Of a DNA stretch of 59,808 bases, positions 2,921 to 34,483 are shown in pieces. The stretch spans positions 1 to 59,808 of the forward strand of contig JACDHS010000011.1 in NCBI GenBank assembly GCA_013820875.1, in the 5' to 3' direction. Numbering within the stretch: position 1 is the first letter of the stretch; each line of letters opens with the position of its first letter. The DNA is from Verrucomicrobiota bacterium. GTDB taxonomy: Bacteria > Verrucomicrobiota > Verrucomicrobiia > Limisphaerales > JACDHS01. The position numbers and the translations under genes were made by a program. The notes beneath the pieces are model-generated. The model saw nothing but the letters and a program-made list of their open reading frames with translations, had not been told where the DNA came from and did no database searches.

Positions 2921-3991
2921 ATGAAGTTGGATCGTCTTCTCTTTCTTTTACTTGTGCCGTGTTTGCTGGTCGCCTGCAAAGATCGCAAGAGCACCGCGGG
3001 CCCGGGCGGACCGCCCACCGCGCAGGTCGTTGTTGTTCCTGCCAAGTCGCAATCTCTTGAGGAAAAGATTTCTCTCGTCGGCAATGTCCTGGCCAATGAA
3101 GCGGTGGAAGTGAAAAGTGAAATCGACGGCACAGTCAGCGAGATTCATTTCAAGGAAGGGCAATCGATTGAGAAAGGCGCTCCACTCGTCACACTCGATG
3201 ACCGGAAGCTACGGGCAGAAGCTCAGCAGGCGGATGCTAACTTCAAACTCAGTGAATCGAACGTCGAACGAGCCAGGCAACTCGTTAAAGAGAATCTCAT
3301 CTCCCAGCAGGAATTCGATCAACTCTCGTTTACCTATCAAGCCACCGAAGCCAACCTTGAGCTCAAACGACAGCAACTGCGCGATGTTAAAATCACCGCG
3401 CCATTTGAAGGCGTAGTCGGCGCGCGTTTTGTCAGCCCCGGACAAGTCATCAGCAAGAACAGTCCGATTACGTGGGTCACAGATCTGGATCCGGTCAAAG
3501 TGGATGTTAACGTGCCGGAACGTTTTCTCGGTCAATTGAAAGTCGGCCAGGCGCTCGACATCAAAGTAGCGGCTTACCCGAATGAGACGTTTCGTGGAAA
3601 AGTATATTTCGTCGCGCAGAATGTTGATCCATCCAATCGCACTGCATTAATTAAAGCTGAATTGGCAAACCCTGATTACAAATTGAAACCCGGGATGTTC
3701 GCCAACCTGGAACTCACGATGGCCACTCGCGAAAACGCTGTGGTCATTCCCGAAGTGGCTTTGACCCGTGTTCTCGATAACAACCGCGCCATGGTGTTCG
3801 TGGTGGACAGCAACAACATCGCCCAGTTACGTCCGGTGGAGTTGGGCATCCGGATGCCGGGTGAAGTGGAGATTCAAAAAGGTATTGAACCGGGTGAAAT
3901 CGTCATTGTGGAAGGTATGCAGAAGACAATCCCCGGCAGACCGGTCAAGCTCGCGCCACCGGAAGCAGCGGCTCGTTATCAGCGGCCCTGA
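2921..3991 (+). CDS. RND efflux periplasmic adaptor lipoprotein (AcrA/MexA-like)
   Basis: A 356-aa membrane-fusion protein. The N-terminus is a lipoprotein signal with lipobox LVAC, which would anchor it to a membrane. A biotinyl-lipoyl-like half (about residues 50-85), a coiled-coil hairpin (about 85-145, rich in QQADANFKLSESNVERA-like heptads) and a second lipoyl half with the family motif ITAPFEGVVG follow. A beta-barrel and membrane-proximal domain complete it (VVIPEVAL, FVVDSN). It bridges the inner-membrane pump encoded next with an outer-membrane channel not present here. It is the first gene of a two-gene operon, 22 bases ahead of the pump gene, with a possible TetR operator just upstream. 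Confidence 0.93.
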   Translation: MKLDRLLFLLLVPCLLVACKDRKSTAGPGGPPTAQVVVVPAKSQSLEEKISLVGNVLANEAVEVKSEIDGTVSEIHFKEGQSIEKGAPLVTLDDRKLRAEAQQADANFKLSESNVERARQLVKENLISQQEFDQLSFTYQATEANLELKRQQLRDVKITAPFEGVVGARFVSPGQVISKNSPITWVTDLDPVKVDVNVPERFLGQLKVGQALDIKVAAYPNETFRGKVYFVAQNVDPSNRTALIKAELANPDYKLKPGMFANLELTMATRENAVVIPEVALTRVLDNNRAMVFVVDSNNIAQLRPVELGIRMPGEVEIQKGIEPGEIVIVEGMQKTIPGRPVKLAPPEAAARYQRP

Positions 3992-4013
3992 GATTAAGAA
4001 CCCCTAGACCCTC

Positions 4014-7000
4014 ATGTTTCTCCCACGCATCAGCATCAAACGTCCCGTTCTGACGGTGATGATGAATTTGGCCCTGGTACTGTTCGGCATCATCAGCCTC
4101 ACCCGCCTGCCGGTCCGCGAGTTGCCGGACATCGATCCTCCAATCGTTTCCATCACGACGGTTTACCCGGGAGCAAACGCGGCAGTTGTCGAAACCGAAG
4201 TCACGGAGCGAATCGAAGAGGCGGTTAATAACATTGAGGGAATTAAAACGCTGACCAGCCAGAGCCGCGAACAGGTCAGCAGCATCACCATAGAATTTGA
4301 TCTATCCCGCAGTATTGATCTTGCCGCGCAGGATGTTCGGGACCGCGTTTCACGGGTGCGTGGGGTCATGCCCGACGAAATCAATGAACCGATCGTCGCG
4401 AAACAGGATGCGGATGCTAATCCAATTCTCTGGATTGGTGTAAACAGTGAACGTTACACGCCGCTCGAACTGACCACCTATGCCGAGCGCAATATTAAGA
4501 ACCGCCTTGAAACGGTTGGTGGGGTTTCTTCCATTCGCATCGGTGGTGAGCAACGGTTCGCCATCCGACTGTCATTGGACAGTGAGAAAATGGCCGCCCA
4601 TCAGGTCACTGTTCTGGACGTGCAGAGCGCCTTGCGACAGCAGAACGTCGAACTCCCGAGCGGACGCGTTGAGAATTACGACCGCGAGATGACCATTCAA
4701 ACCCGGGGCGAACTCAAAACCGCCGAGGAGTTCAATCAACTCGTTCTTAAAATGGATGGCGCCAAAATCCTTCGCCTGCGTGACGTCGGTATCGCCAGGG
4801 AAGGTGTTGAGAACGAGAGAACCAGGGCTCGCAACAATGGTCGCCCCTGTATTTTCCTTGGCATCGTCAAACAATCCAAGGCCAACACCGTGGCTGTGGC
4901 CAGGGACATCAAAGCCGAGGTTGAAAGAATCCGTGAGACGCTGCCTGCGGGAATTGAGATGATTTATAACTATGACGAGTCCATTTACGTTGAGCGCGCC
5001 ATCAACGAAGTCTGGGAAACGTTGTTGATCGCATTTCTTCTTGTCGTGCTGGTTATTTATCTTTTTCTGCGCGATATCCGTTCCACCCTTATTCCGGCGA
5101 TCGCCATTCCCGTTTCCATTACAGCGACATTCCTGGTTCTTAACTGGCTCGGTTACTCCATCAATATTCTTACGATGCTGGCTCTCGTGCTGGCCATCGG
5201 CATTGTTGTAGATGATGCCATCGTCGTGTTGGAAAACATTTATCGGCACATCGAAGAAGGGATGACCCCGATGGATGCGGCATACAAAGCGATGGATGAA
5301 ATTTCATTCGCGATCCTGGCGATCACTTTTTCGCTGGTAGCGGTGTTCCTTCCCCTCGCCTTTCAAACCAGTGCCACCGGACAGTTGTTCGTGGAGTTTG
5401 CGGTTGCCGTTGCCGGATCAGTCATCATTTCAGCATTTGTGGCGCTGACCCTGGCCCCGATGCTTTCCTCCAGGATTCTTCGCAGTGTGGATCATCGGCA
5501 TGACAACTTTGTTCTCCGCTTTTTTGAACGGTTACTTAACTGGTTTAATCGCCGCTATGGACAACTGCTCCGCTGGTCGCTGGCACATCGCGCCGTGATC
5601 CTGATCATTGGTGTCTGCAGCCTGGGTTTGACTATTTTCCTTTTCGTTTCTTTGGAAAAAGAATTCCTCCCGGAAGAAGACAAAGGACGTTTGATGGCGT
5701 TTGCCAATGCTCCAGAAGGGTCCACTGTCGAATACACCAGCCGCATGGTCGAAAAGATGGAAGAAATCCTCCGCAACACTCCTGAGATCGAGGCCTATGG
5801 TTCGGTCGTAGCTTTCGGGCAAGGCGCTCCCGGACGGGGGAATAGCGCGATTCTTTTCATCCGTTTAAAGACGGATCGCAAACGCAGTGTTCAGGAAATC
5901 ACCAGCGGTCCTGACGGAATCAAGGCGAGGTTCATGCGCGAAGTGGAAGGAGCCATTGCTATCGCCCAGATTCCGAAGGCAATCGTGCGCGGTTTCGGCG
6001 CTCCATTCCAAGTCGTGATCAAAGGACAGGATCTGCATGAATTGGATGCCTACGCGACGGAGCTTGCCAACACTCTGCGCGGGTCCGGTTATCTGCAAAA
6101 CGTCCAATCCTCTTTTGATCTCAACAAACCTGAACTTCGATTAAACATTGATCGTAATCGTGCTGCGGCCCTCGGCGTTTCCATTGAGGACGTTTCGCGA
6201 ACCCTGCAAATCCTGTTCGGCGGCCTGGATCTGAGCCGGATCAAAGTGAGCGGAAAAGAATATGATGTCATCGCCCAGGTGGAACGCATGTCACGGCTGA
6301 CCCCGCAAAGCCTCGATAGCCTTTATGTGCGCAATGCCAGTGGCGAATTGATCCAGTTGAGCAGCATCGTCTCGCGTGAAACAGGCGCCGCCCCCAACGT
6401 GATCGAACATTACAATCGTCTGCGTAGCGCCACCATTTCCGGGACACCCGCCGGTGTGCCGATGGGAACTGCCATGGAAAATGTCGCGCAATTGCTCAGC
6501 ACGAATATGCCGGCGCAGTTTCAGTATGAATGGGCCGGTGAAGCGCGCGATCTGCGAGATGCCGGACGGGAAGTTTGGTTCGTCCTGATCCTGGCCCTGA
6601 TCATCGTTTTCATGGTATTGGCAGCGCAGTTTGAAAGTCTTGTTCATCCGCTCACCGTCATGCTGGCAGTTCCACTCGCCGGAGTCGGAGCATTAGGACT
6701 GCTCTGGCTGGTCGGCTCGCTCAGTTATTTCGACATTAACGTGCCGGCCATGAACATCAATCTCTTTAGCCAAATTGGTTTAATCCTGCTGGTCGGTTTG
6801 GTGACAAAAAATTCCATTCTGCTGGTGGAATTTGCGAACCAGCGACGCGAGCAAGGTGCGAATGCGCATGACGCCATGTTGCAAGCCGGAATTGTCCGTC
6901 TGCGTCCTATTTTGATGACCGCTTTTTCAACGATCGCTGGTATCTTGCCGATTGCGATTGGCTTCGGAGCTGGCGCAGAAAGCCGGCGTCCCATGGGCGT

Positions 7001-7154
7001 TGCCGTAGTGGGCGGCATGCTGACCAGCACCTTCCTGACCCTGGTGATTATTCCAGTGGTTTACACTGTCTTTAGCGATCTGAGCGAGAAATTCACACGG
7101 CGCAAACCAGCACCAGCAGCGACCCTCCCAGAGACTGTCGAAAAAGAAGCGTAA
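4014..7154 (+). CDS. RND (HAE1 family) multidrug efflux transporter, AcrB/MexB-like
   Basis: A 1,046-aa inner-membrane pump of the usual length for the family, with two repeats of one plus five membrane segments and two large periplasmic loops. The proton-relay aspartates are visible in TM4 (GIVVDDAIVVLENIYRH) and the partner lysine in TM10 (GLVTKNSILLVEFAN). The start MFLPRISIKRPVLTVMMNL is the canonical N-terminus. It exports drugs or other amphiphiles by proton antiport together with the adaptor encoded 22 bases upstream. The outer-membrane channel is missing from the operon and would be shared or encoded elsewhere. The substrate cannot be read from the sequence. Confidence 0.95.
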   Translation: MFLPRISIKRPVLTVMMNLALVLFGIISLTRLPVRELPDIDPPIVSITTVYPGANAAVVETEVTERIEEAVNNIEGIKTLTSQSREQVSSITIEFDLSRSIDLAAQDVRDRVSRVRGVMPDEINEPIVAKQDADANPILWIGVNSERYTPLELTTYAERNIKNRLETVGGVSSIRIGGEQRFAIRLSLDSEKMAAHQVTVLDVQSALRQQNVELPSGRVENYDREMTIQTRGELKTAEEFNQLVLKMDGAKILRLRDVGIAREGVENERTRARNNGRPCIFLGIVKQSKANTVAVARDIKAEVERIRETLPAGIEMIYNYDESIYVERAINEVWETLLIAFLLVVLVIYLFLRDIRSTLIPAIAIPVSITATFLVLNWLGYSINILTMLALVLAIGIVVDDAIVVLENIYRHIEEGMTPMDAAYKAMDEISFAILAITFSLVAVFLPLAFQTSATGQLFVEFAVAVAGSVIISAFVALTLAPMLSSRILRSVDHRHDNFVLRFFERLLNWFNRRYGQLLRWSLAHRAVILIIGVCSLGLTIFLFVSLEKEFLPEEDKGRLMAFANAPEGSTVEYTSRMVEKMEEILRNTPEIEAYGSVVAFGQGAPGRGNSAILFIRLKTDRKRSVQEITSGPDGIKARFMREVEGAIAIAQIPKAIVRGFGAPFQVVIKGQDLHELDAYATELANTLRGSGYLQNVQSSFDLNKPELRLNIDRNRAAALGVSIEDVSRTLQILFGGLDLSRIKVSGKEYDVIAQVERMSRLTPQSLDSLYVRNASGELIQLSSIVSRETGAAPNVIEHYNRLRSATISGTPAGVPMGTAMENVAQLLSTNMPAQFQYEWAGEARDLRDAGREVWFVLILALIIVFMVLAAQFESLVHPLTVMLAVPLAGVGALGLLWLVGSLSYFDINVPAMNINLFSQIGLILLVGLVTKNSILLVEFANQRREQGANAHDAMLQAGIVRLRPILMTAFSTIAGILPIAIGFGAGAESRRPMGVAVVGGMLTSTFLTLVIIPVVYTVFSDLSEKFTRRKPAPAATLPETVEKEA

Positions 7155-15938: not shown

Positions 15939-18900
15939 TCATTCGACCACGTTTCGGTTGAGAATTGGATTTAATTCCTCAGCCAACTTCCGCACCAGCG
16001 GTTCGCGCACAATCGCCCCGTGGTAGCCAGGAACTTCAAAGATTTCGAGTCCACCCTGAATGAGAGTGCCCCAGCCATTGGTCGGGTCTTCATGGATCCC
16101 GACCGGTTGTTTAGTGGCGCGAAAGAGCACTGCATTTCCAGAATACGGTTTGTGACGGTAGTTGAGGCAGGACCGGTAATTTGCGGTGGCCACCTGGGTA
16201 TAGGATTTCGGCAGTTTAAAATGCCAGAGATCGCCTCCGTCATCGCCAGTCCACTTGAATTGATTTCGCAGGACGCGCGGCAAAAAGAGAAAGCGAACAT
16301 TCTGTTTTAGCTTTTTCATTTTCCGCTGCCAGCGCACTGGCAACTTCGCGAGCTTCTCGCGCACGTAACCCGGCCACTCACGGGCTTGCATCATGCGCAA
16401 ATTGTTGATGTGCATTTCCCAACGAGCCATGGACTTGAGCAACCGGTGTCGCGAGATGCCAAGGCTCGGCAATGGCGTAGGATAATCTTTTCCATAGGAA
16501 TCGAAGAAGGCGAGCAACGCCACCTGCTCACCGGACGCATGGAGTTGCTGCGCCATTTCGTACGCTACGATGCCGCCAAAGGAAGAACCACCGATTGAAT
16601 AGGGTCCATTCGGTTGGATCCGTTTGATTTCCTGAACGTAACGAGTCGCCATTTCCTCAATCGTTTTCAGCCACGCTTCTTTGCCATCTAGACCTTGCGC
16701 CTGGATTCCGTAGAACGGTTGGTCGGGATCAAGGTAACTTGCCATGTGCGAATATTCGAGGACAGCGCCTCCGACTCCATGAACACAGAAGAATGGAGTT
16801 CGGGCGCCAGTCGGTTTAATCGGCACAATAAGATTGGAACGACCGCTCTGCCCGGTCTCAATGGCCACTTCGCCTCCACCCACGACGGCGGCAAGCTTTT
16901 CGACGGTCGGCGCTTCAAACAATGTGGCGAGTGGGATTTCTTTGCCCGTAAGCTTTTTGATTTTTGCGAACACGGTGAGGGCCAGCAAGGAATGCCCGCC
17001 CAGTTTGAAGAAATCATCCTGCACACCCACCTTATCGATGCCTAACACCTGCTGCCATATCTCAACCAGCGCCTTCTCAGTTTCATTTCTTGGGGCAAGG
17101 TAATTGGAGGAAATCTGTGGTCGGGCGTATTTCTTCCCCTTCTCTTTGACGACAATTTCTTCCCCTTTGGAATGGGGCGTAGAATGACGTTCTATCTGCA
17201 CGCTGACCTCTTCAGGTGAGACGATGATTTGTGGACTCGATTGGTTGAGTATCCGCGAGAATGCCTCTGCGCCTTCGCCCGGTCGGATGCCCATTTTCAA
17301 AGACCGCGCCCGTTCAGCCTGTAATTCCTGGGGCACTTTCGTGTTCACTGCCATGCCGACTTCCTGCCATGCATACCAGTTGATGGAAATGAAGTTTTCC
17401 GAACGATGCTTCCGAGCGTAAGCATCCAGGAAGGCGTTGGCCGCGCAATAGTCCACCTGCCCTACCCCGCCGAGAAAAGAGTTGATCGTCGAACAAAGAA
17501 CAACGAAATCCGGCTTCTCCCCTGCGAGAGCATTCTTGAGAGCAATGGTGCCATGGACTTTTCCGGAGAGGACGCGCTCAGCCGCCTGGCGAGTTTTGAT
17601 TTGCATGATGCCGCCCCCGGCAACACCTGCCGCGTGAATCACTCCATTGATTGCGCCGAAGCGGGACCGGACTTGATCTATGGCACGCTTCATCTCCTGC
17701 TCATTGGTGACATCGGCATTGATGACCAGTACTTCGCTGCCGAGACGTTCGAGCGTTTCGATCTTGCGGAGTTTAAGAGTGGTTGGATCCTGAGCATCGT
17801 GTTGCTCAATCCATTGTTTCCATTCGGCTCTGCCAGGAAGAGGTTGCCGAGCGATCAATACCAAACTCGCGCCAACGGTTTGCGCAAGGTGTTCGGCGAG
17901 CGCAAGGCCAATTCCACCTAAGCCACCGGTAATTAAATAAACGCCGTTCTTGCGAAGCGCTGGTTTCCCAGCCCGTTCGGCTGGAACGTGTGTTGGTTCA
18001 AAGCATTCGACCCAACGATGAGCGCCGCGATGCGCTACAACGCTGTCGGTTGTGTTCGCAAAGATTTCGTCCAGCAACAGTTCATTAAACTTCTCCGCTT
18101 TCGCTGCCGACTCCGGCAAGACCACGTCAATGCTTGAGCATTGGATGTTTTCGAACTCCTGCGAAACGACACGGCACGGACCGAGAACAAGCGACTTTTC
18201 AGGCACGCACGTTTCATCGCCAGTCACTTCCTGTAGCTCATTCGAAATCACCTTGAGTTCGATCTGCAATTCCGATGCTTGCTCGCCCAGGGTTTGGGCG
18301 AGATACAGCAAACTGTAGAAACTCAGATCGAGCGATGAATCCACACCGCTACCATTCCTGTTCCTATTCTTCCGCGCATCCGGTGTGACAGACCAGAGGT
18401 GAATGATCTTCGTGGGGAGTCGGCCCAGAAAGGATAAGGATTCGAAAAGCGTTCGAAAATCTTTTGGCTCACCCGGATTGATCACATAGGTATCGTTGCT
18501 CTTCTTCTCATATTCTTCTCCGATGGAAACGACGGCTGCGAGTTGCCCAAGCTCTTTCAACTGGCGCGCCAAATTTGCTCCAAGGCCGCAGGGATCAATA
18601 AACAACAACCATGAGACACGCTTTTCAGCCGACTTCTCGGCAACTGTATGATCGATGGCGCGACGTTTCCACGATGGGACATAAAACCATTTCTCAAACT
18701 CCTGCCGATGCGACTGGCTCTTTGTGGAAAGCGAAACCTCCTTCGACTCTTCCACCCAATATCTTTGCCGTTCGAAAGGATACGTCGGCAAGGGCACACG
18801 TCGCCGTTGTTCCTTCGAGTAAAAACCGCTCCAATCAATCTCGACACCGAGCAGCCAGAGTTGGCCGAGCGTCCCAATGATGTGTTGTTCGTCAGATATT

Positions 18901-21900
18901 TGATCGGTGGGATGGCCCAACGATGGGAAAGCTCTTTGGGGCGCGCCAGAGCTTGTATGCAGCTTTGTTAATGAGGTGAGCGTTTGTCCCGGCCCCGCTT
19001 CGATGAACACGCGGTCCGGCTCTTTAAGCAGCTCCTGGATGCCCTGCGAAAACCGCACCGTATTTCGGAGATGTTTTGCCCAGTAGGCGGGATCCGTTGC
19101 CTGCTTTGGTTCAATCCATGTGCCAGTGAGATTCGAGATATAGGGCAACTTTGGGGCATTCAACTGCACCTGCGTCACTCGCCGGGTAAATGCCTCCAGG
19201 ATGGGTTCCATCATTGGAGAATGAAACGCATGAGAGGTGTGCAAACGCTTGCAGTTAAGCCCCTCGCCGGTGAGTCGTCCGGCGAGCTTTTCGATGGCTT
19301 CATTTTCACCCGAGACAACATTCAAACAGGGACCATTGCTCGCGGCGAGTGCGAGGTGATCATTGAGAAAGGGTTGAATGTTCTTTTCAGAAAGCGGCAC
19401 CACCAGCATGGATCCGCCCGGCAGCCTTTGCATAAGCCGACCCCGTTCAGCAACCAACCGAAGCGCGTCTTCGAGACTGAAAACGCCAGACAGGCAAGCC
19501 GCAACATATTCGCCAATACTATGCCCGAGCATCGCTTCAGGCTGGATGCCCCAACTGATCCATAGTTTGGCCAAAGCGTATTCAATCGCAAAGAGAGCGG
19601 GCTGAGCGAAAGCGGTTTGATTGAGTTGCCGTGTGGCGGCTTCGGCGTCTTCGTCATGAAACAACAGGACGCGGATATCACAGCCGATTTCCGTTCTGAG
19701 AATTTCCGCACAAGCATCAAACGTTTCGCGGAAAAGCTCTTCCTGCTGATAGATATCCCACGCCATCCTGAAATGTTGCGCGCCTTGCCCCGAGAAAAGG
19801 AAAACGATCTTCCGGTCACGGGGTTCTTCCATCGCGAAACAAAGCTTTTCAGGATCTTCGAGAACACCAATCGTTTCCTCAATGTTTCTCCCCACGGCGA
19901 AGCAACGCTGTTCAAAATGTTTACGACCGCTTTGTAGCGTGTGGGCCACATCCGGAAGATTGGTTTCTGGATTCTCCTTTAAATGATTGGCCAGATTTCC
20001 AACCAGTGACGACAAAGCTGAATCTGTTTTGGAAGATAACAAAAATAGCTGATGCGGTCTGGATTGCTCACACGCCTGATAGGACGGCGCTTCTTCAAGG
20101 ACAAGATGAGCGTTTGTTCCACCAATCCCGAACGCGCTCACACCCGCGCGCCGTGGAGCACCATTTGTTTTCCAATCCTGAAGCGTGGCATTGACGTAGA
20201 AGGGACTGTTTTCAAAGTCGATTTTTGGATTCGGCTGCTCGAAATGTAAGCTGGGCGGGATTGCTTTATGTCGCAGCGCGAGGACGGTTTTGATTAATCC
20301 CGTCACCCCGGCTGCAACATCGAGATGCCCGAGGTTACTTTTGACAGAACCAACAGCGCAAAATTGTTTCTTTTCAGTTTTCTCGCGGAAGGCCTGCGTA
20401 AGCGCGGCAATCTCAATCGGATCGCCCATGGGTGTTCCTGTTCCGTGCGCTTCGATATAGGTGATGGTTTCCGGATCCACCTGCGCCGCTGCCTGCGCCA
20501 TTTTCACCACTTCGGCCTGGCCTGAAATACTTGGCGCGGTGTAACCAACCTTCTCAGCGCCGTCATTATTGATCGCACCGCCCAGGATGATTGCCTGAAT
20601 CGTATCGCCATCTTCCAAGGCGTCGGAAAGTCGTTTCAACGCAACGATACCAACTCCCATCCCGGAGACTGTTCCCTGCGCTTCTGCATCGAAGGCGCGG
20701 CAGTGTCCATCTGGTGAAAGGATCATTCCCTCCTGGAAAAGATAGCCGCGGCGTTGCGGTTGATTGGCGCACACGCCACCAGCGAGGGCCATATCGCATT
20801 CTCCAGCCAGCAGGCTTTGACACGCGAGTTGCACGGCGACAAGCGATGTGGAACAAGCTGTTTGAACGGCGAAACTCGGTCCGCGTAAATTTAATTTGTA
20901 GGAAACGCGAGTCGCGAGGAAGTCTTTGTCATTCCCGATCATCGCTTGATAGAGCTCGTTGACCGCCATCTCGCTTCGTTTGCCGAATCGCGCAGCATAA
21001 GTGTTCATGCTCGATCCGGCGTAAACCCCAATTGCCCCCGGAAAATTATCCGGATTGCAGCCCGCATTCTCCAAAGCCTCCCACGCAGCTTCGAGGAAGA
21101 GGCGATGCTGCGGATCCAGGATTTCAGCTTCCTTAGGATTGAAACCAAAGAAACCTGCGTCGAACTGATCCAAGTTTTCCAAAGCAGTTCCTGCTTTGAC
21201 ATAGTTTGGATCCTGCAGTTCCTCAGCGGAAACGCCCTGGCTCAGTAAATCTTCATCCCGCCAGGGAAAAATGCCTTCAACCCCGTCCCGCAGATTACGC
21301 CAAAACTCTTCCACATTGTTTGCCCCAGGAAAACGACCGGCCATTCCTACGATCGCAATGCGCTCGGGTTGCCCCTCCTTGGAGTCACGCTGCCTGGTCT
21401 GCCTTTTCGAATTCAACTTTTCATCGGTAACGTCCTCCGCAAAGAATCCGGCCAAAGAATCAATCGTGGAATGCCGAAACATTTCGACCATCGGGATTTC
21501 TTTGGCGAACGTTTGGCTTAATTGATTATGCACCCTGGCGACCAGCAACGAGTGCCCACCCAGATCGAAAAAGTTGTCATGAACCCCCACCTTGGATAAG
21601 CCGAGAGCCTCCTGCCAAATCTGCGCGATCGTCTGTTCAATCTGATTACGCGGCGGAATCCGTTTGGAATCACTATCAGACTGCGCAGCATCGGGTATCG
21701 GCAAAGCACGCCGATCCACCTTCCCATTCGGTGTGAGCGGCAAAGCGTCGAGCCAGACAAACACCGAGGGAATCATGAACTCAGGAAGCTGCCGTCCGAT
21801 GAACTGCTTGATTTCTGAGGTCTCTGGAGTGGATTGCGATTTCGGCACGGCATAAGCAATCAGGCGTTTGTTGCCGGGAGTTGTTTCCCGCGCAACCACC

Positions 21901-24728
21901 ACGGCCTCCCGCACATTCGCGTGTTGACGCAAAACTGTTTCGATTTCACCCAACTCAATGCGGAAGCCACGAATCTTAACCTGGTTATCGAGCCGACCAA
22001 GATATTCAATCGTGCCATCCGCCCGGTAACGTGCGAGGTCTCCTGTTCGATACATGCGCGCACCCGGTTCCTCGCTAAATGGGTTCGGAACAAACTTCTC
22101 CTGCGTAAGATCGGGACGATTCAAATAGCCGCGCGCCAACCCGGCTCCCGCGATGTGAAGTTCTCCCGGTACACCGATTGGCACCATTTGCCGATACTCG
22201 TCTAAAATATAAATCTGCTCGTTTGCAAGCGGCCTGCCAATGTTTGCTGGTTCTCCGGGTTTCCTGAGGGTGAACGTCGAGTAAGTCGTCGTTTCGGTTG
22301 GCCCATACAAATCGAACACGCGTCGCACTGAATTAGTTGCATAGATTTCGTCCACGAGCGTCATCGGCAACGCTTCGCCCGCGAGGTTCACCGTTTGAAT
22401 CGAGGCCGGGAGTGCCTTCATCCTGAGCAGTTCCGCCATTGCGGATGGAACGGTGTTGATCAAACGCACTTCATTGCGCGTGGGGAGCGTGGGCAAAGCC
22501 AATGCGTTCTCGGCAATGATCACCTTTCCGCCCCAGGCGAGTGTTACGAGCAGTTCAAAAACAGAAAGGTCGAAACAAACAGAGGTGGAGAAGAGAACGC
22601 CATCAAACTCTTCCGCAGAAAAAATATCTTTGGCCCAATAAGCAAACGCCGCCACGCTGCGATGCTCAATCGCTACACCTTTCGGTTTGCCGGTTGAACC
22701 CGAGGTAAACAGCACGTAGGCGAGATGACTCGGATTTATGTAAACCGAAACGTTTCCCTCGTCCGCCTGAGAAATGGACTCCCATTCCGTATCGACACAA
22801 ATAATTTTGCGCCTCTCAGCGCCCCCCTGCTCTGCCCATTCCCGCAATTCCACTGAACCGCCCAGTTGACGCGAGCTTGTCAGCAAAAGCGCAGCGCCGG
22901 AATCCTGTAGCGTAAAAATCTGTCGGTCCTTCGGATACGCCGGATCAATCGGCACGTAAGCACCACCCGATTTCAGGATTCCGAGAATCGCAACAACCAG
23001 ATCAATAGAACGTTCAAGGCACAGCCCCACCAAAGCATCAGGTCCAACTCCGAGAGAACGCAAATGCTGCGCGAGTTGATTGGAGCGCGTATCAAGATCC
23101 CCGTACCTCAGTCTTCGATCTCCATCCACGAGCGCGGTTTTTTCCGGATGTTGTTGAGCTTGCTGTTGGAACAGTTCAGGAATGCAGGCATCCTTGGCAT
23201 AAGGAAGTTCGGTTCTGTTCCACTGCGCCATCTGCTCAATCTCACTTTCCGGAATCATCTCAAGTGCCCGAATTTCCTGCGATGGATCATTGCCAATGGC
23301 TTCCAATAGTTTGCAGAAATGAGAAGCCATTCGCTGCATTGTTTCCCGCTCAAACAAATCGCTGTTGTATTCAAAGAAGCACGCTGCGCCATCTGCCGTT
23401 TCATTGACATCCAGGCACAAATCGAATTTCGACACCCCACAGTCGATCGGGACGGACTGCACTTTCAATCCCGCCAGTTCCATGTCTTCGGCAGGTAAAC
23501 TTTGGAACGAAAAGAGAACCTGAAAGATTGGGGTATGGCTGAGATCTCGAGTTGGCTTGATTGCTTCCACTAATTTATCAAAAGGCACGTCCTGATTCTC
23601 GATCGCGTTCAACCAGTTCTCGAACACATCAAACAGCAGTTCACAAAAGCTCAGGTCTCCTTCGACGAAAGTGCGTAGCGCATGAGTATTTACGAAGAAA
23701 CCAATCTGATCGCTCAGTTCAGGAAGATTACGGCCGTTCGCCAGTGTCCCGACGATTATATCCTCCTCACGCGTGTAACGGAAGAGCAGGACATTGAAAG
23801 CAGCGAGATAAATGCTGAAAATGGTCGTCCGTTCCTGCTGTTGAATCTTGTGTAACGCATCAACAATGGGGCGAGGAACATTAAAACGAACCATCGCACC
23901 GCGAGAGGTTTGGACTGCGGGCCGCGGATGATCCGATGGCAGTTCCAGAATGGGCAATGGGCCACCGAGTTGTTCCTTCCAGTATTCCAATTGCCGGGCA
24001 ACAACCTCTCCTTCAGATTGCCTCTTCTGCCACACAGCATAATCCGCATATTGAAGAGATAACTTCGGCAGGGACGGGTCTCCCCCTTCCAAAAAGCTTT
24101 TATAAAACATTCGTAACTCCCGAAAAAACACGCCCAATGAAGTGCCATCAAAGATAATGTGATGAACAACCAGAAGGAGGAGATGTTCTTCATCAGTTAT
24201 GCGAAATAGTTGCGCCCGGAAGAGTGGTCCCACCGCCAGATCAAACGGATTGTGCGCAGTTAACCGCACCTCCCGTTTTGCTTCGCCCTCGGCGTCCGGC
24301 AGTGCCCGCAAATCCATCGTCTCAACCTTAAACCGCCCGAACGAACAGATCTTCTGATGAGGCAACCCGTTAACCAACGGGAAAACCGTTCGGAAAACCT
24401 CATGACGCTGCACGATGGCGTCAATGCTCCGCTCGAGCAACTCTGGTTGAAGCGCCCCTGAAATTTTCCAGGAGAACGCGATATTATAGGCGGTGCTCTC
24501 CGGATTCGATTGATGAATAAACCAGAGGCGTTGTTGCGGGGAAGAAAGGGGTAACAACTGATCCCGCGATGCGCGTTGAAGTGGGAATCCCTCACCCGGA
24601 GCATCTAAAGATTTTCCGACCGCGCCAAGGGTGCCTCGGGGTTCCCGTTCCACGTCAGTTCCCGCTATTTCAAGCTCTGTTTCCATTTCGTTGTATTTGT
24701 TCATTTGGCCTGTTCTGAATGTCCACAA
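15939..24728 (-). CDS. Hybrid NRPS-PKS megasynthase (C-A-T-KS-AT-KR-T-TE)
   Basis: A 2,929-aa single-protein assembly line. Domains by residue: condensation 58-480 (HHIIFDG at 189-195); adenylation 510-1010 (LFTSGSTGKPKG, YRTGDLAR, NGKVDR); carrier (Ser 1060 in GGHS); ketosynthase 1122-1548 (Cys 1292 in TACSTS, His 1428 and 1468); acyltransferase 1640-1930 (GHSIGE, and HAFH as in malonyl-CoA-specific domains); ketoreductase 2015-2515 (GGLGGIG, Ser 2413, Tyr 2427); carrier (Ser 2580); thioesterase 2635-2929 (GGSSFGG, His 2903). No DH, ER or methyltransferase is seen. My by-eye adenylation code is D-L-F-A-N-A-L-T-Y-K, close to an alanine-type code as I remember it. A likely product is an N-acylated beta-hydroxy-gamma-amino acid or a derivative. 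The start is either TTG at 24728 (AGGGAG upstream) or ATG at 24704. Confidence 0.96.
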   Translation of the reverse strand: MWTFRTGQMNKYNEMETELEIAGTDVEREPRGTLGAVGKSLDAPGEGFPLQRASRDQLLPLSSPQQRLWFIHQSNPESTAYNIAFSWKISGALQPELLERSIDAIVQRHEVFRTVFPLVNGLPHQKICSFGRFKVETMDLRALPDAEGEAKREVRLTAHNPFDLAVGPLFRAQLFRITDEEHLLLLVVHHIIFDGTSLGVFFRELRMFYKSFLEGGDPSLPKLSLQYADYAVWQKRQSEGEVVARQLEYWKEQLGGPLPILELPSDHPRPAVQTSRGAMVRFNVPRPIVDALHKIQQQERTTIFSIYLAAFNVLLFRYTREEDIIVGTLANGRNLPELSDQIGFFVNTHALRTFVEGDLSFCELLFDVFENWLNAIENQDVPFDKLVEAIKPTRDLSHTPIFQVLFSFQSLPAEDMELAGLKVQSVPIDCGVSKFDLCLDVNETADGAACFFEYNSDLFERETMQRMASHFCKLLEAIGNDPSQEIRALEMIPESEIEQMAQWNRTELPYAKDACIPELFQQQAQQHPEKTALVDGDRRLRYGDLDTRSNQLAQHLRSLGVGPDALVGLCLERSIDLVVAILGILKSGGAYVPIDPAYPKDRQIFTLQDSGAALLLTSSRQLGGSVELREWAEQGGAERRKIICVDTEWESISQADEGNVSVYINPSHLAYVLFTSGSTGKPKGVAIEHRSVAAFAYWAKDIFSAEEFDGVLFSTSVCFDLSVFELLVTLAWGGKVIIAENALALPTLPTRNEVRLINTVPSAMAELLRMKALPASIQTVNLAGEALPMTLVDEIYATNSVRRVFDLYGPTETTTYSTFTLRKPGEPANIGRPLANEQIYILDEYRQMVPIGVPGELHIAGAGLARGYLNRPDLTQEKFVPNPFSEEPGARMYRTGDLARYRADGTIEYLGRLDNQVKIRGFRIELGEIETVLRQHANVREAVVVARETTPGNKRLIAYAVPKSQSTPETSEIKQFIGRQLPEFMIPSVFVWLDALPLTPNGKVDRRALPIPDAAQSDSDSKRIPPRNQIEQTIAQIWQEALGLSKVGVHDNFFDLGGHSLLVARVHNQLSQTFAKEIPMVEMFRHSTIDSLAGFFAEDVTDEKLNSKRQTRQRDSKEGQPERIAIVGMAGRFPGANNVEEFWRNLRDGVEGIFPWRDEDLLSQGVSAEELQDPNYVKAGTALENLDQFDAGFFGFNPKEAEILDPQHRLFLEAAWEALENAGCNPDNFPGAIGVYAGSSMNTYAARFGKRSEMAVNELYQAMIGNDKDFLATRVSYKLNLRGPSFAVQTACSTSLVAVQLACQSLLAGECDMALAGGVCANQPQRRGYLFQEGMILSPDGHCRAFDAEAQGTVSGMGVGIVALKRLSDALEDGDTIQAIILGGAINNDGAEKVGYTAPSISGQAEVVKMAQAAAQVDPETITYIEAHGTGTPMGDPIEIAALTQAFREKTEKKQFCAVGSVKSNLGHLDVAAGVTGLIKTVLALRHKAIPPSLHFEQPNPKIDFENSPFYVNATLQDWKTNGAPRRAGVSAFGIGGTNAHLVLEEAPSYQACEQSRPHQLFLLSSKTDSALSSLVGNLANHLKENPETNLPDVAHTLQSGRKHFEQRCFAVGRNIEETIGVLEDPEKLCFAMEEPRDRKIVFLFSGQGAQHFRMAWDIYQQEELFRETFDACAEILRTEIGCDIRVLLFHDEDAEAATRQLNQTAFAQPALFAIEYALAKLWISWGIQPEAMLGHSIGEYVAACLSGVFSLEDALRLVAERGRLMQRLPGGSMLVVPLSEKNIQPFLNDHLALAASNGPCLNVVSGENEAIEKLAGRLTGEGLNCKRLHTSHAFHSPMMEPILEAFTRRVTQVQLNAPKLPYISNLTGTWIEPKQATDPAYWAKHLRNTVRFSQGIQELLKEPDRVFIEAGPGQTLTSLTKLHTSSGAPQRAFPSLGHPTDQISDEQHIIGTLGQLWLLGVEIDWSGFYSKEQRRRVPLPTYPFERQRYWVEESKEVSLSTKSQSHRQEFEKWFYVPSWKRRAIDHTVAEKSAEKRVSWLLFIDPCGLGANLARQLKELGQLAAVVSIGEEYEKKSNDTYVINPGEPKDFRTLFESLSFLGRLPTKIIHLWSVTPDARKNRNRNGSGVDSSLDLSFYSLLYLAQTLGEQASELQIELKVISNELQEVTGDETCVPEKSLVLGPCRVVSQEFENIQCSSIDVVLPESAAKAEKFNELLLDEIFANTTDSVVAHRGAHRWVECFEPTHVPAERAGKPALRKNGVYLITGGLGGIGLALAEHLAQTVGASLVLIARQPLPGRAEWKQWIEQHDAQDPTTLKLRKIETLERLGSEVLVINADVTNEQEMKRAIDQVRSRFGAINGVIHAAGVAGGGIMQIKTRQAAERVLSGKVHGTIALKNALAGEKPDFVVLCSTINSFLGGVGQVDYCAANAFLDAYARKHRSENFISINWYAWQEVGMAVNTKVPQELQAERARSLKMGIRPGEGAEAFSRILNQSSPQIIVSPEEVSVQIERHSTPHSKGEEIVVKEKGKKYARPQISSNYLAPRNETEKALVEIWQQVLGIDKVGVQDDFFKLGGHSLLALTVFAKIKKLTGKEIPLATLFEAPTVEKLAAVVGGGEVAIETGQSGRSNLIVPIKPTGARTPFFCVHGVGGAVLEYSHMASYLDPDQPFYGIQAQGLDGKEAWLKTIEEMATRYVQEIKRIQPNGPYSIGGSSFGGIVAYEMAQQLHASGEQVALLAFFDSYGKDYPTPLPSLGISRHRLLKSMARWEMHINNLRMMQAREWPGYVREKLAKLPVRWQRKMKKLKQNVRFLFLPRVLRNQFKWTGDDGGDLWHFKLPKSYTQVATANYRSCLNYRHKPYSGNAVLFRATKQPVGIHEDPTNGWGTLIQGGLEIFEVPGYHGAIVREPLVRKLAEELNPILNRNVVE

Positions 24729-25082: not shown

Positions 25083-28000
25083 ATGCAGTTAGCTAATGCA
25101 CTGCTTACAATGATAAAAGCGAAAGTTGTTCTATTATTGTCAGCTTTGGCGCTCGCCTCTCCGGTGCGTGCCGCGGAATTTTACGTGGCTCCTGACGGTA
25201 AGTCCACGAACACGGGAACTATATCGAGTCCCTGGGACTTACAAACGGCATTGAATCATCCCGCCACACTGAAACCGGGAGACACGGTCTGGCTCCGCAA
25301 CGGTATTCACCGGATGGACAATCGGATCACCAAGTTCACCAGTCGCCTGGCAGGAACATCGACTGCCCCAATAACGGTTCGGCAATATCCCGGTGAACGC
25401 GCCACGATTGACGGCAATATTTTGCAGTCCACTGGTGGTTGGGTGAATTATTGGGGTTTTGAAATTTATAACTCCAACACCAATCGTTACACCTCACAAA
25501 CTGGCCCATGGCCCACCACATGGTGGGTCAAGTATGATGGTAAGGACGTTGATCTCTGTGTCAGCGGCTTTGATCTACAGGCTCCAAATGTCAAACTGAT
25601 CAACCTGGTCGTCCGCGATTCGATTGGCGGCGGTTTCGGCATCAGTAAGACAGCGCAGAACACCGAGATGTATGGCTGTTTGTCTTACTACAATGGTTGG
25701 CTGGCCCCGGATCGCGCTCATGGCCATGGATTGTACGGACAAAACGCAGCTCCCTACACCAAGAACATCATGGAAAATCTGTTCTACGGGAACCTCGCTC
25801 TAGGTCTTCAAGCTACCGGGAATGGCCCTGAACCAATCGCAGATAACTTCAACCTGGAAGGCAATGCCCTGTTTCAGAATGGTATTCTCGCCACTAAACA
25901 CCAGGCCAATATTCTCGTTGGAGCGTGGCAGGGTCGCGCCCAAAACCCGCGCATTATCGGCAACATGGTTTATGACACGATGGGTAGCGGCTCGGATTCC
26001 TACATCGGTTACAGCGGCGGAACGGATAACGCTGTGGTGCAGAACAATTACTTCGGCACCAGCGCCATGTTCTCCACCGCGAACTTTAATATGACCGTGT
26101 CCGGAAACCTGTTCGGCGGCGGAATAATCAATCTCGACAAAACCAAGTATCCGAATAACACCTTTCTCTCAGCAAAGCCGACTCAGAACGCGATCTTCGT
26201 GCGCCCAAACAAGTATGAAGCGGGCCGCGGCAATATCGTCATTTACAACTGGCAGAAGCTGAACACAATTTCAGTTGATCCTTCGGCGGCTGGGTTGAAG
26301 TCCGGCGACGTTTATGAATTGCGTAACGCGCAGAACTTCTACGGCGATGTCATCACCGGCACTTACAATGGTGGTTCCATTTCCATTCCAATGACCGGTC
26401 GCACAGTTGCGAAACCGCAAGGAGCAAACTTCACAACGCCTGCATCCACGTTCCCGGAATTCGGTGTATTCGTGATCATGAAGAAAGCTGGCAGCGCACC
26501 GCCGCCAGTGAACACCGCCCCCGTTGTTTCTTCCATCGCAAATCAAACGATCCAGGAAGATTCGGCGACTGCACCAATCTCATTCACTGTTAGCGACGCA
26601 GAAACTGCTGCCGCAAACCTGAGTGTTACCGCAAGCTCTTCCAATCAGACGCTCGTTCCGAACGCAAACATCGCATTAGGCGGAAGCGGTGGAAATCGCA
26701 CCATCACCGTCACACCTGCAAAGGAACAATCCGGTTCAGCTACGATTACAATCTTCGTTAGCGACGGCATTAATGTGGTGAACAGAAGCTTTGCTCTGAC
26801 GGTTACGGCTATCAACCGCGCTCCGCAGATATCCGCAATTGCAAATCAAACCATCAAGGAGAATACCAGCGCGGGGCCGATCGGCTTCACAGTAAGTGAC
26901 CGCGAAACCTCGGCAGCAAACCTATCGGTCACCGGCACCTCCTCTAACACGACGCTTGTTCCAAACGGCAATATCGTCTTTGGCGGCAGCGGTTCGAATC
27001 GCACGATTACAGTAACGCCAGCGGCAAATCAATTCGGCACAGCCACAATTACCGTTCGAGTGAGTGATGGTGTGAATATCACAAGCCAGAGCTTTGCTTT
27101 GATTGTTGAGGCCGTGAACTCGGCTCCTGTCATTTCAAGTATCGGCAACCAGAGCATTCCGGAAGATGGAACCACGAGCGCAATTGGTTTCACCGTGAGC
27201 GACCGCGAAACTGCCGCTGCCAACCTGGCAGTCACTGCAAGCTCCGCAAATCAGACGCTTGTTCCGAATGCAAACATTACGTTGGGCGGAAGCGGCAGCA
27301 ACCGCACCATCACAGTTAAACCGGCAGCCGATCAGTTCGGCACTGTGGCAATTACAGTTGCGGTCAGTGATGGCGCGCTCACAGCAACCACCAGCTTCAC
27401 CCTGGTGGTCACCGCAGTGAACGATGCCCCGACGATCTCGAGCATCCCCGATCAAACCACCCAGCAAGATACTGCAACCGGGCAGATTCCTTTTGTGATC
27501 GGCGATATTGATACTCCGATTGCAAACCTGAGTCTGGCGGGCGGTTCTTCGAATCCAACGCTTGTTCCGAATGCCAACATTGTATTCGGCGGCAGCGGAA
27601 CGAACCGAACGGTTAAGGTCACCCCCGCAAGCGGACAATCCGGCAGCGCCGTCATCACCGTCTCCGTCAACGACGGCGCGGCCAGCGCGAGCAAGAGCTT
27701 CAACCTGACCGTGGACAAGATCGACGACGGCGGCACCAATACCACGGACAACGTGTATCTCGGAATTGAAGCCGAAGACGCTGTTATCGTTTCGCCGATG
27801 ACCGTGGTGACGGACACGAAAGTTCCCAGCCGCCGTTATGTGCATACGCCGCTCGCGAACCAGGGCACAGCGACTTACACCGTCGAGGTTCCCAAGACAG
27901 GCACCTACATCATCTGGAGCAAAATCCTGGGTGAAACGTTTGCCAGCGATTCGTTCTTCGTTGCCGTCAACGGAGAGGAAGACGTCTTTGATGCAGCGGA

Positions 28001-29189
28001 AAACAAAACTTCTCCTGAATGGCAATGGAGCATTGTCAACGGACGCGGCGGCACAGGAACGCCGTTGAAGCTTGCCCCACGCACGTTTAACTTGTCGCAA
28101 GGCCTGAACACAATTCTGATTCGAGGTCGTGAAGCAAACGCTGGCCTGGATCGATTCATCATCACCGATGACCTGAACTACACGCCAACGGAACTTATGG
28201 CAACCGATGACGTTGTGGCCGCTTACGCAGGAACAACAACCCAGATCGGGCACACCGATCTGTTACAGAATGACAATTCCTTGTTCGAAGACAAATTGAC
28301 CATTATCGCAGTCAGTCCCGCCGCGAACGGCACTGTGGTGCTTACCAGCAGCACCATCAGTTATACGCCCAAGGCTGGTTTCAGCGGCATTGACAATTTC
28401 AGCTACACCGTCAAAAACGACACTGGCGCGACCAGCACAGCCAACGTCACAGTGGAAGTAAAATCCGCGGACAGGATTCATCTTGGATTCGAAGCGGAGT
28501 CCGGGACGTTGGTCTCCCCAATGGTTCTGGAGACTGACAACCTCGTTCCTGACCGCAAATACATCTGGAGCACAAAACAGAACAAAGGAACAGCCACCTA
28601 CACAATTGATATTCCCAGGACAGACACTTACGTGATCTGGGCGAAAATATTGGGTATCAAGTTCAACAGCGATTCCTTCTTCGTCTCGGTGGACGGCGAT
28701 AACGACATCTTCGACGCCGCTGAAGGGAAAGAATCCCCCAACTGGCAGTGGAGCGTGGTGAATGGACGTGGATCAAGCGGGAAAGTTCTGGCACTAAATC
28801 CCCGAACCTTCACTCTGGCCGCTGGCAAACATACAATCGTGGTCGGTGGCCGCGAATCAAAGGCCGGTCTGGACCGAATCATCATCACCAATGATCGCGA
28901 TTATGTGCCGCAAGAGGTCATTGCGGTGGCAGATCAGATCACTGCGAGCGCCGGAAGTGTTAAAAAAATTGCAGCGCAGGACCTGCTCTTGAATGACATT
29001 TCACTGTTTCAAAACATTCTGACAATCACAGCCGTGAAAAGTGGCGCAACCGGAACGGCAACTCTCAGCGGCAGCACTGTGAGCTACGCTCCGAAGGCTG
29101 GTTTCACCGGCACAGACACATTCACCTACACGATCAGTGACGGCCAGGGCAGCACGAGCACCGGGACTGTCACAGTGACGGTTCAATAA
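25083..29189 (+). CDS. Large secreted beta-helix / cadherin-like / CBM-like exoprotein
   Basis: A 1,368-aa secreted protein. After a signal peptide ending near SPVRAAEF comes a right-handed parallel beta-helix domain (about 30-465; EFYVAPDGKSTNTGT, many N-rich turns), as in polysaccharide lyases. Four near-identical cadherin/Ig-like repeats of about 101 aa begin at about 476, 577, 678 and 779 (NxAPxISSIxNQT starts). Then a carbohydrate-binding-like domain (888-1039), a Big_9/VCBS-like repeat (1040-1127), a second copy of each (1131-1275, 1277-1368) and the C-terminus. The likely role is binding and cutting extracellular polysaccharide, or adhesion; catalytic residues are not clear. ATG 25083 or 25110 are both possible; neither has a good ribosome site. 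A terminator follows. Confidence 0.9.
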   Translation: MQLANALLTMIKAKVVLLLSALALASPVRAAEFYVAPDGKSTNTGTISSPWDLQTALNHPATLKPGDTVWLRNGIHRMDNRITKFTSRLAGTSTAPITVRQYPGERATIDGNILQSTGGWVNYWGFEIYNSNTNRYTSQTGPWPTTWWVKYDGKDVDLCVSGFDLQAPNVKLINLVVRDSIGGGFGISKTAQNTEMYGCLSYYNGWLAPDRAHGHGLYGQNAAPYTKNIMENLFYGNLALGLQATGNGPEPIADNFNLEGNALFQNGILATKHQANILVGAWQGRAQNPRIIGNMVYDTMGSGSDSYIGYSGGTDNAVVQNNYFGTSAMFSTANFNMTVSGNLFGGGIINLDKTKYPNNTFLSAKPTQNAIFVRPNKYEAGRGNIVIYNWQKLNTISVDPSAAGLKSGDVYELRNAQNFYGDVITGTYNGGSISIPMTGRTVAKPQGANFTTPASTFPEFGVFVIMKKAGSAPPPVNTAPVVSSIANQTIQEDSATAPISFTVSDAETAAANLSVTASSSNQTLVPNANIALGGSGGNRTITVTPAKEQSGSATITIFVSDGINVVNRSFALTVTAINRAPQISAIANQTIKENTSAGPIGFTVSDRETSAANLSVTGTSSNTTLVPNGNIVFGGSGSNRTITVTPAANQFGTATITVRVSDGVNITSQSFALIVEAVNSAPVISSIGNQSIPEDGTTSAIGFTVSDRETAAANLAVTASSANQTLVPNANITLGGSGSNRTITVKPAADQFGTVAITVAVSDGALTATTSFTLVVTAVNDAPTISSIPDQTTQQDTATGQIPFVIGDIDTPIANLSLAGGSSNPTLVPNANIVFGGSGTNRTVKVTPASGQSGSAVITVSVNDGAASASKSFNLTVDKIDDGGTNTTDNVYLGIEAEDAVIVSPMTVVTDTKVPSRRYVHTPLANQGTATYTVEVPKTGTYIIWSKILGETFASDSFFVAVNGEEDVFDAAENKTSPEWQWSIVNGRGGTGTPLKLAPRTFNLSQGLNTILIRGREANAGLDRFIITDDLNYTPTELMATDDVVAAYAGTTTQIGHTDLLQNDNSLFEDKLTIIAVSPAANGTVVLTSSTISYTPKAGFSGIDNFSYTVKNDTGATSTANVTVEVKSADRIHLGFEAESGTLVSPMVLETDNLVPDRKYIWSTKQNKGTATYTIDIPRTDTYVIWAKILGIKFNSDSFFVSVDGDNDIFDAAEGKESPNWQWSVVNGRGSSGKVLALNPRTFTLAAGKHTIVVGGRESKAGLDRIIITNDRDYVPQEVIAVADQITASAGSVKKIAAQDLLLNDISLFQNILTITAVKSGATGTATLSGSTVSYAPKAGFTGTDTFTYTISDGQGSTSTGTVTVTVQ

Positions 29190-33034: not shown

Positions 33035-34483
33035 TCAACTCAGCCCTGTGTTGCTTGTTGTGTGACATTCAGTGTGCGTTCTGGGCAATGGCACTTTTGA
33101 AATGACTCCCCGGAATTTGCCCCGGTCTGTTCGCGGGATTTCCGGCACGCGCTGAATGTGAACTGAAACGTTTCCGATTCGTTCCATGAATCTGCGTCGA
33201 ATCATTGCATCCACCTCTTTGCTCGAATCGCCGGAGGTGACAAGATTGATAGTAAAACGATCAACGGCCTCCTGGATGATCTGCCCTTCCATGACACCGG
33301 GAAGATCGATAAACACCCAATGAAAGCGCACCGTCTGCCGTCCGTCAGGTCCGACAATCACATCTTCCATTCGACCAACCACCTCTTTCAGCACAGGAAG
33401 ATGATTTCTCCCGCAAGGACAGGATTCGTTCGACCATGCCCCCACATCACCGATTTCATAACGGATGAGCGGTTGTGCCTCATTCAGCAGTGAGGTGCAT
33501 AGAATCCGCCCTTCCACGCCTGGAGGAACTGGATGCCCATTATCATCCACAATCTCCATGATTCCAAAATCCGGACTGACATGAAGCCGGCCGCATTCGC
33601 ACTCAGTGGCGAGAACGCAATTTTCAACGGCGCCATATTCTTCATAAGCCCGTGTCCGCAGCGCCCGTTTGATAACCGTCTTCATGGCTCGCGTAAGCTT
33701 CTCACTGCAAAGCACAGCCGCCACAGGTTCGTAATCGAGGGTCAACCCCTGCTCAGCCATCATCCGGGCCAGGGAGAAATGCGAATGCGCATAGCCGGTG
33801 AGCACGATCGGTTGGTAATGGTTCAGCGCATCGACGTAAAAGCGCACGTTTTCCGGCGAAATATGATAAGCCGAAAAATAGACCTGCCGTTCAGCCCAAT
33901 TGTATCTCTCAAAAGGAGGACGCGATATTCCCCGGGGCACAACCAGCCTTCCACCAATCATCGAGCGTGGCGCATGAATGCTTGTTCCCGCCCATCCCAA
34001 CGACCGAACCTCTCGCGCGGCAATGAATCGGCGGTGATCGTCTGCGGTGCAAACAGCGGTGATCGGTGTTCCTGTGCTGCCACTGCTTTGATAGCGCAAC
34101 AGTTTTTCCTGGCCCTTGGTTTTCTGCGCCACGAAGGAATCGGGATCAGAACGCAAATCAGTCTTCGGCGTCACCGGCAAATGCGACAACCTCTTGGGAG
34201 TTATTCCTTCCAGGTCATTTTTGTTTATTCCCGCTCGCTGCCATTTTTTCCGGTAATATGGAACGTGTTCAAATGCGTGGCGCAGAACCCGGCTGAGTTC
34301 GGTTTGCACATATTCCTGCATTTCTTCCGGCGACCAACGATCGCGCTCGCGAAATCCGCGCACGTATTCCTGGAACTTGCCACCGAGTCGTTCCCGCTTC
34401 CAGGCCAGTCCAAAAATGGATATGCCGAGATTCTGTATGGAGACGGGGACGTACGGATACAATCGTTCAAGAAAATGAGCCAT
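33035..34483 (-). CDS. CapK/PaaK-like adenylate-forming enzyme
   Basis: A 482-aa member of the phenylacetate-CoA ligase-like branch of adenylate-forming enzymes. The P-loop-like motif is SSGSTGTPI (about 131-139), and the AMP-site region EEYGAVENCVLATEC and the C-terminal RTDRGKFRGV are typical. Proteins of this type (CapK) occur in many capsule clusters, where they are thought to activate an acyl or amino acid group that decorates the polymer. Four conserved Cys (ATECECG, ESCPCG) may bind a metal. It sits between a GT2 gene and a GT4 gene. The acyl substrate is unknown. Confidence 0.88.
   Translation of the reverse strand: MAHFLERLYPYVPVSIQNLGISIFGLAWKRERLGGKFQEYVRGFRERDRWSPEEMQEYVQTELSRVLRHAFEHVPYYRKKWQRAGINKNDLEGITPKRLSHLPVTPKTDLRSDPDSFVAQKTKGQEKLLRYQSSGSTGTPITAVCTADDHRRFIAAREVRSLGWAGTSIHAPRSMIGGRLVVPRGISRPPFERYNWAERQVYFSAYHISPENVRFYVDALNHYQPIVLTGYAHSHFSLARMMAEQGLTLDYEPVAAVLCSEKLTRAMKTVIKRALRTRAYEEYGAVENCVLATECECGRLHVSPDFGIMEIVDDNGHPVPPGVEGRILCTSLLNEAQPLIRYEIGDVGAWSNESCPCGRNHLPVLKEVVGRMEDVIVGPDGRQTVRFHWVFIDLPGVMEGQIIQEAVDRFTINLVTSGDSSKEVDAMIRRRFMERIGNVSVHIQRVPEIPRTDRGKFRGVISKVPLPRTHTECHTTSNTGLS

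Follow-up and report, generated by a model that had tools for sequence, protein, structure and literature searches.

The window analysed here, a 59.8-kb stretch of DNA, is the whole of one contig (C167) of the MAG of an uncultured soil bacterium (Verrucomicrobiota), with a genome of 5.7 Mb in 239 contigs. It encodes a hybrid NRPS-PKS gene on the minus strand (15939-24728), which reads as one ORF of 2,929 codons without interruption; a plus-strand reading of the same interval is ruled out by 51 stops. The start codon is TTG, and an in-frame ATG occurs 8 codons further in. The order C-A-T-KS-AT-KR-T-TE in a single 2,929-aa chain, as claimed in a sequence-only reading of this DNA, is borne out by the ORF and by Pfam. 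The single-ORF NRPS-PKS is confirmed as real, and the gene is no artefact because a full-length counterpart of the same architecture exists in a second genome. A literature search on the exact domain string found nothing relevant.

Upstream, a divergent 4.1-kb gene (25083-29189, plus strand) encodes a 1,368-aa Ig/cadherin-repeat protein that is possibly surface-exposed. It lies between the NRPS-PKS gene and a Wzx/Wzy-type polysaccharide cluster (29246-59784) encoding glycosyltransferases, Wzy, Wzz, carbamoyltransferase, formyltransferase and deacetylase functions. This cluster includes a 1,097-aa protein (37861-41154, minus strand) in which a GDSL/AlgX-like SGNH N-terminus is fused to a carbamoyltransferase, and two minus-strand ORFs without any Pfam match (33035-34483, 482 aa; 47586-48806, 406 aa). 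The 3' side of the NRPS-PKS gene is occupied by an fn3 ORF, a histidine kinase and a response regulator and, farther away, an RND pump (2921-7154). The statement that no other biosynthetic gene lies nearby holds for NRPS, PKS and adenylation genes, of which no other was found within the window, but overlooks the polysaccharide cluster and the pump.

Domain architecture and catalytic residues

The C, A and T domains are fused in frame to KS-AT-KR-T, making this a hybrid type I NRPS-PKS that combines its own loading (A-T) and its own release (a TE with Ser-Asp-His) in a single protein. An N-terminal extension of ~57 residues precedes the C domain (23229-24557, residues 58-500; Pfam Condensation, 374 bits), in which the HHIIFDG motif (189-195) is intact. 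The A domain (21720-23171, residues 520-1003) comprises AMP-binding (520-869) and C-terminal (928-1003) Pfam matches, and the first carrier domain (21435-21653, residues 1026-1098; PP-binding ~1032-1095) carries LGGHSL with Ser1060. The KS (20094-21365, residues 1122-1545; ketoacyl synthase 1122-1497 plus extension) has C1292, H1428, K1463 and H1468 in place, and the AT (18954-19808, residues 1641-1925; acyltransferase 1642-1920) displays GQGAQ, GHSIGE (S1737) and SHAFH. The KR (17361-18548, residues 2061-2456) consists of a structural half (2063-2204) and a catalytic half (2262-2456) with GGLGGIG, K2390, T2414, Y2427 and N2431. The second carrier domain (16869-17093, residues 2546-2620, as also placed by PP-binding at ~2546-2620) again has LGGHSL, with Ser2580, and the TE (15954-16838, residues 2631-2925; thioesterase match from 2645) is an alpha/beta-hydrolase with S2716, D2743 and H2903. 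Catalytic residues are kept in the C domain (HHxxxDG), the carriers (Ser), the KS (C-H-H) and the AT (Ser/His). In NCBIfam, the whole protein best fits general NRPS and PKS models, with scores far under their cut-offs.

Substrate and extender unit

The ten-residue adenylation code is DLFNNALTYK (D720, L721, F724, N758, N781, A783, L807, T815, Y816, K1003). An earlier by-eye version, DLFANALTYK, was right in nine letters and wrong in the fourth, which is N and not A. The code is that of the second module of McyA in microcystin producers that incorporate D-Ala (PMC3640908 Table 2), and the closest solved A core, with the window A core as query against the PDB, is also that of McyA (8jbr, 311 bits); this likeness concerns the A domain alone, and the window protein is no microcystin enzyme. 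Given the match to an A domain with known Ala incorporation, the pocket appears to be of the Ala type, and the alanine specificity previously proposed with low certainty now has stronger support. The same code also occurs in four other Verrucomicrobial loci.

A quick tree built from 41 KS domains places that of the window in a 22-member clade (100% SH-aLRT) that includes KS domains preceded by A-T modules, either in one chain or on the protein that comes before. Membership of this clade marks it as a KS of the kind that takes over aminoacyl or peptidyl chains bound to an NRPS. The nearest solved KS-AT structures include 8xjy, a PKS also solved in complex with a peptide synthetase (8xjz), and CurL. 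The KS departs from the consensus at only 1 of 117 near-invariant sites. The GHSIGE and HAFH motifs mark the AT as malonyl-type, in support of the suggestion that one amino acid is extended by one malonate.

The condensation domain and a possible partner protein

The N-terminal C domain might be fed by a second protein. A tree built from 56 C domains places it among elongation-type domains, although the bootstrap had not settled and its immediate neighbours are poorly resolved; it lies outside a group, itself strongly supported, of C domains located downstream of PKS modules. PDB bit scores are well above those of SrfA-C and TycB for Txo2/Txo1, DhbF and TycC6. The lipo-initiating RzmA C domain scores 57 bits compared with 260-334, but the comparison discriminates poorly, as a control C domain that follows an acyl ligase ranked the references similarly. 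Because the window C domain resembles ordinary elongation-type domains, the lipo-initiating starter role ascribed to it is unsupported, though possible.

In an alternative reading, the protein is the last part of a split line, in which the C domain accepts a peptidyl or acyl chain handed on by a protein encoded elsewhere in the genome, and the product is larger than one amino acid plus one malonate. The intact HHxxxDG motif and the placement of the C domain in the tree are consistent with this, and an N-terminal C domain without a nearby donor module counts against an enzyme that acts by itself. Homologous KS-AT-KR-T-TE proteins in Nostoc and in one other genome (G082) each stand at the end of a multi-protein line, and the MAG encodes further NRPS-like proteins. 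One of them, the control mentioned above, is a stand-alone acyl-ligase-T-C protein on contig C9 (L083:6917-10315, plus strand) and could be such a donor. No module is visible downstream of its terminal C domain. Another contig (C20) encodes a three-protein NRPS line beside an Sfp-type phosphopantetheinyl transferase (C20:91571), so the search for such an enzyme that had been recommended was successful elsewhere in the genome. However, the ORF and domain survey of the 59.8-kb contig revealed no donor module for the C domain, and no A, T or C gene besides the NRPS-PKS gene itself. A Pfam search of the N-terminus detected no docking domain, although the comparison proteins also lack a Pfam docking match. 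The 3'-side neighbour of the counterpart gene, on an 11.7-kb contig, is unrelated, being a HEAT/cytochrome-type gene (judged by reading its translation). On balance, we consider a split line a serious but unlikely alternative to the self-contained synthase.

Genomic context

The polysaccharide cluster, which includes formyltransferase, carbamoyltransferase, Wzy and Wzz genes, starts 4.5 kb upstream, raising the question of whether the synthase serves it by making an unusual amino-hydroxy acyl group for an amino sugar or lipid carrier. In favour of this, the same genome has an A-T-TE gene with a Pro-like code (DVQFIAQVVK) on contig C147 (L084:3622-6339, plus strand), which lies directly inside a Wzx/glycosyltransferase cluster, adjoining a phosphodiesterase gene. 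The C147 protein may itself function in amino-acid decoration of surface polysaccharide. The NRPS-PKS gene, however, is outside the polysaccharide operon, from which it is separated by the divergent Ig/cadherin-repeat gene, and the sole readable neighbour of the counterpart is the HEAT/cytochrome-type gene, not a polysaccharide gene. As polysaccharide clusters are common, the adjacency may be due to chance, and we view a role in polysaccharide modification as improbable.

Gene composition provides no signal of horizontal transfer (GC of 0.527, versus 0.52-0.53 in the surroundings and in other contigs). No viral relative was found, and plasmid matches are only to distant cyanobacterial and other PKS. 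The proposed Verrucomicrobial origin is supported: the counterpart is from 'Verrucomicrobiales bacterium RYN_621', a MAG of the same family.

Reduction and release

In the KR, the Lys-Ser-Tyr triad retains K2390 and Y2427, and the catalytic Ser, 13 positions before Tyr2427, is replaced by Thr2414 (Ser occurs in 10 and Thr in 2 of the 12 KRs compared). If this substitution in the SDR triad inactivated the domain, an alanyl-beta-keto thioester might cyclise as it is released, giving a 5-methyl tetramic acid of the tenuazonic-acid type, but this is highly improbable given that the nucleotide motif, K2390, Y2427 and N2431 are retained, that Thr is a conservative change also seen in a homologue (G079), and that the counterpart has Ser. 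Reduction of the keto group is likely, as had been suggested, and subsequent release by the TE is consistent with its Ser-Asp-His triad. The Ser-to-Asp spacing of 27 is the same as in EntF. A structure model of the TE (mean pLDDT 84.5) shows the type-I thioesterase fold, its lid long and helical, and its best solved matches (7crn, AB3403 and Pks13) do not separate hydrolysis from cyclisation. TEs of other Verrucomicrobial lines (L035, L084, L088, L109 and L110) carry Cys where the nucleophilic Ser would be (GYCFG or GWCYG), and their Asp is replaced by Glu or Asn.

A counterpart with a probably exchanged adenylation core

Among 320 genomes of the order, the whole architecture was detected in two only, both members of the same family, although single-module parts are common. 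In no other genome of this set does a match span the whole KR-T-TE half, and a contig scan with that half recovered the counterpart and three distant lines only. The counterpart (genome G001; JAQGOU010000098.1, contig C320, L034:2577-11390, minus strand) is full length and 57% identical. Four-fold degenerate third positions are 30% identical between the two genes, which is about chance, whereas second codon positions are 76% identical overall and 85-86% identical in the KS, AT and TE. Purifying selection has therefore acted along the whole gene and kept the entire protein.

This similarity breaks down in the A core (residues 690-830), where identity is 20-29%, compared with 56% and 61-69% on its outer sides. 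The window A core is 61-64% identical to other domains with the code DLFNNALTYK, and the G001 core is up to 68% identical to Gly-type domains. Its code, DILQLGLIWK, begins with the DILQLG typical of Gly activation (PMC12283262, PMC5466765). The simplest reading would be that the specificity segment of the A core was exchanged, and the same kind of exchange has been documented for the second A domain of McyA (PMC3640908).

The G001 protein also differs in its extension domains. The AT nucleophile is Gly (Ser in 27 of 28 ATs), the first Gln of GQGAQ is Glu, and the KS Lys is Glu (Lys in 40 of 41 KS domains); its KS departs at 10 of 121 near-invariant sites. Because the AT Ser and KS Lys are lost, extension is probably abolished or else provided in trans. 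Single-base errors in the MAG might also generate such changes, but this is less likely since there are three independent active-site differences. A decaying pseudogene is not favoured in view of the full-length frame and the contrast between second and four-fold positions. With these residues lost in one of two members, the family as a whole may not have conserved malonate extension.

We find the exchanged A core and the lost extension residues of the counterpart the most interesting part of this system. The pair constitutes a natural experiment, in which an Ala/Gly exchange and the loss of extension catalysts occurred in a gene that purifying selection has otherwise preserved. A more specific proposal is that the window enzyme is a one-family, stand-alone synthase of a free, small gamma-amino-beta-hydroxy acid or gamma-lactam, and that its relative became non-extending, with a different function, through acquisition of a Gly-type core and loss of AT and KS activity. 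We regard this combination as quite unlikely.

Proposed function and comparison with known systems

Taken together, the evidence makes it reasonably probable that the window encodes a compact hybrid NRPS-PKS carrying out the whole assembly, from loading of the amino acid to release of the product. From the architecture, motifs and code, which are read from the sequence, we infer the substrate, extension, reduction, form of release and role of the C domain as follows. A phosphopantetheinyl transferase, probably the Sfp-type enzyme at C20:91571, would activate both carriers, and the A domain would load L-alanine onto the first. The C domain might link the alanine to an acyl or aminoacyl group supplied by a second protein, or be idle. 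The KS would take the alanyl or acyl-alanyl chain and extend it with malonate loaded by the AT, and the KR would reduce the beta-keto group. The TE could then release a 4-amino-3-hydroxypentanoic-acid unit as the free acid, an ester or amide, or a gamma-lactam. The product unit is thus likely to be 4-amino-3-hydroxypentanoyl (Ala plus malonate, keto-reduced), possibly N-acylated.

The description of Verrucomicrobial biosynthesis as little studied was overstated, as divergent NRPS/PKS clusters from this group appear in several surveys (PMC8692599, PMC7298704). The enzyme class is well known, the chemistry of the product unit is known, and earlier surveys have covered Verrucomicrobial hybrid lines. 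Should the enzyme work alone, a single gene would suffice to turn alanine into a statine-like acid or lactam. Such a route would be easy to express and study, and comes from an uncultured group with highly divergent assembly lines.

A close chemical parallel is in bleomycin biosynthesis, where an NRPS Ala module (BlmVII) and a PKS module (BlmVIII) combine Ala with one malonate and reduce the keto group to generate a 4-amino-3-hydroxy-pentanoate-type unit. There, the unit is C-methylated, the modules are separate proteins within a long line, and no TE acts at the Ala-malonate point, whereas the window enzyme is a single protein with its own TE and without a methyltransferase. The fungal TAS1, which makes tenuazonic acid, is also a single-protein NRPS-PKS with a one-amino-acid product, but it ends in a cyclising KS and has no AT, KR, ACP or TE like those of the window enzyme. 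Terminal KS-AT-KR-T-TE proteins encoded on Nostoc plasmid pn1 (L117) and Planktothrix p3 (L116) share the PKS half and are 37% identical to the window protein over KR-T-TE. In these cyanobacterial lines, the NRPS module is on a separate protein and other modules occur upstream, whereas the window enzyme has all domains in one chain. Finally, 4-amino-3-hydroxypentanoic acid (4A3HPA) is a natural building block of chitinimine (PMC13291983). The same unit is thus found in a hybrid product, although there it is internal to a large PUFA-synthase/NRPS/PKS product.
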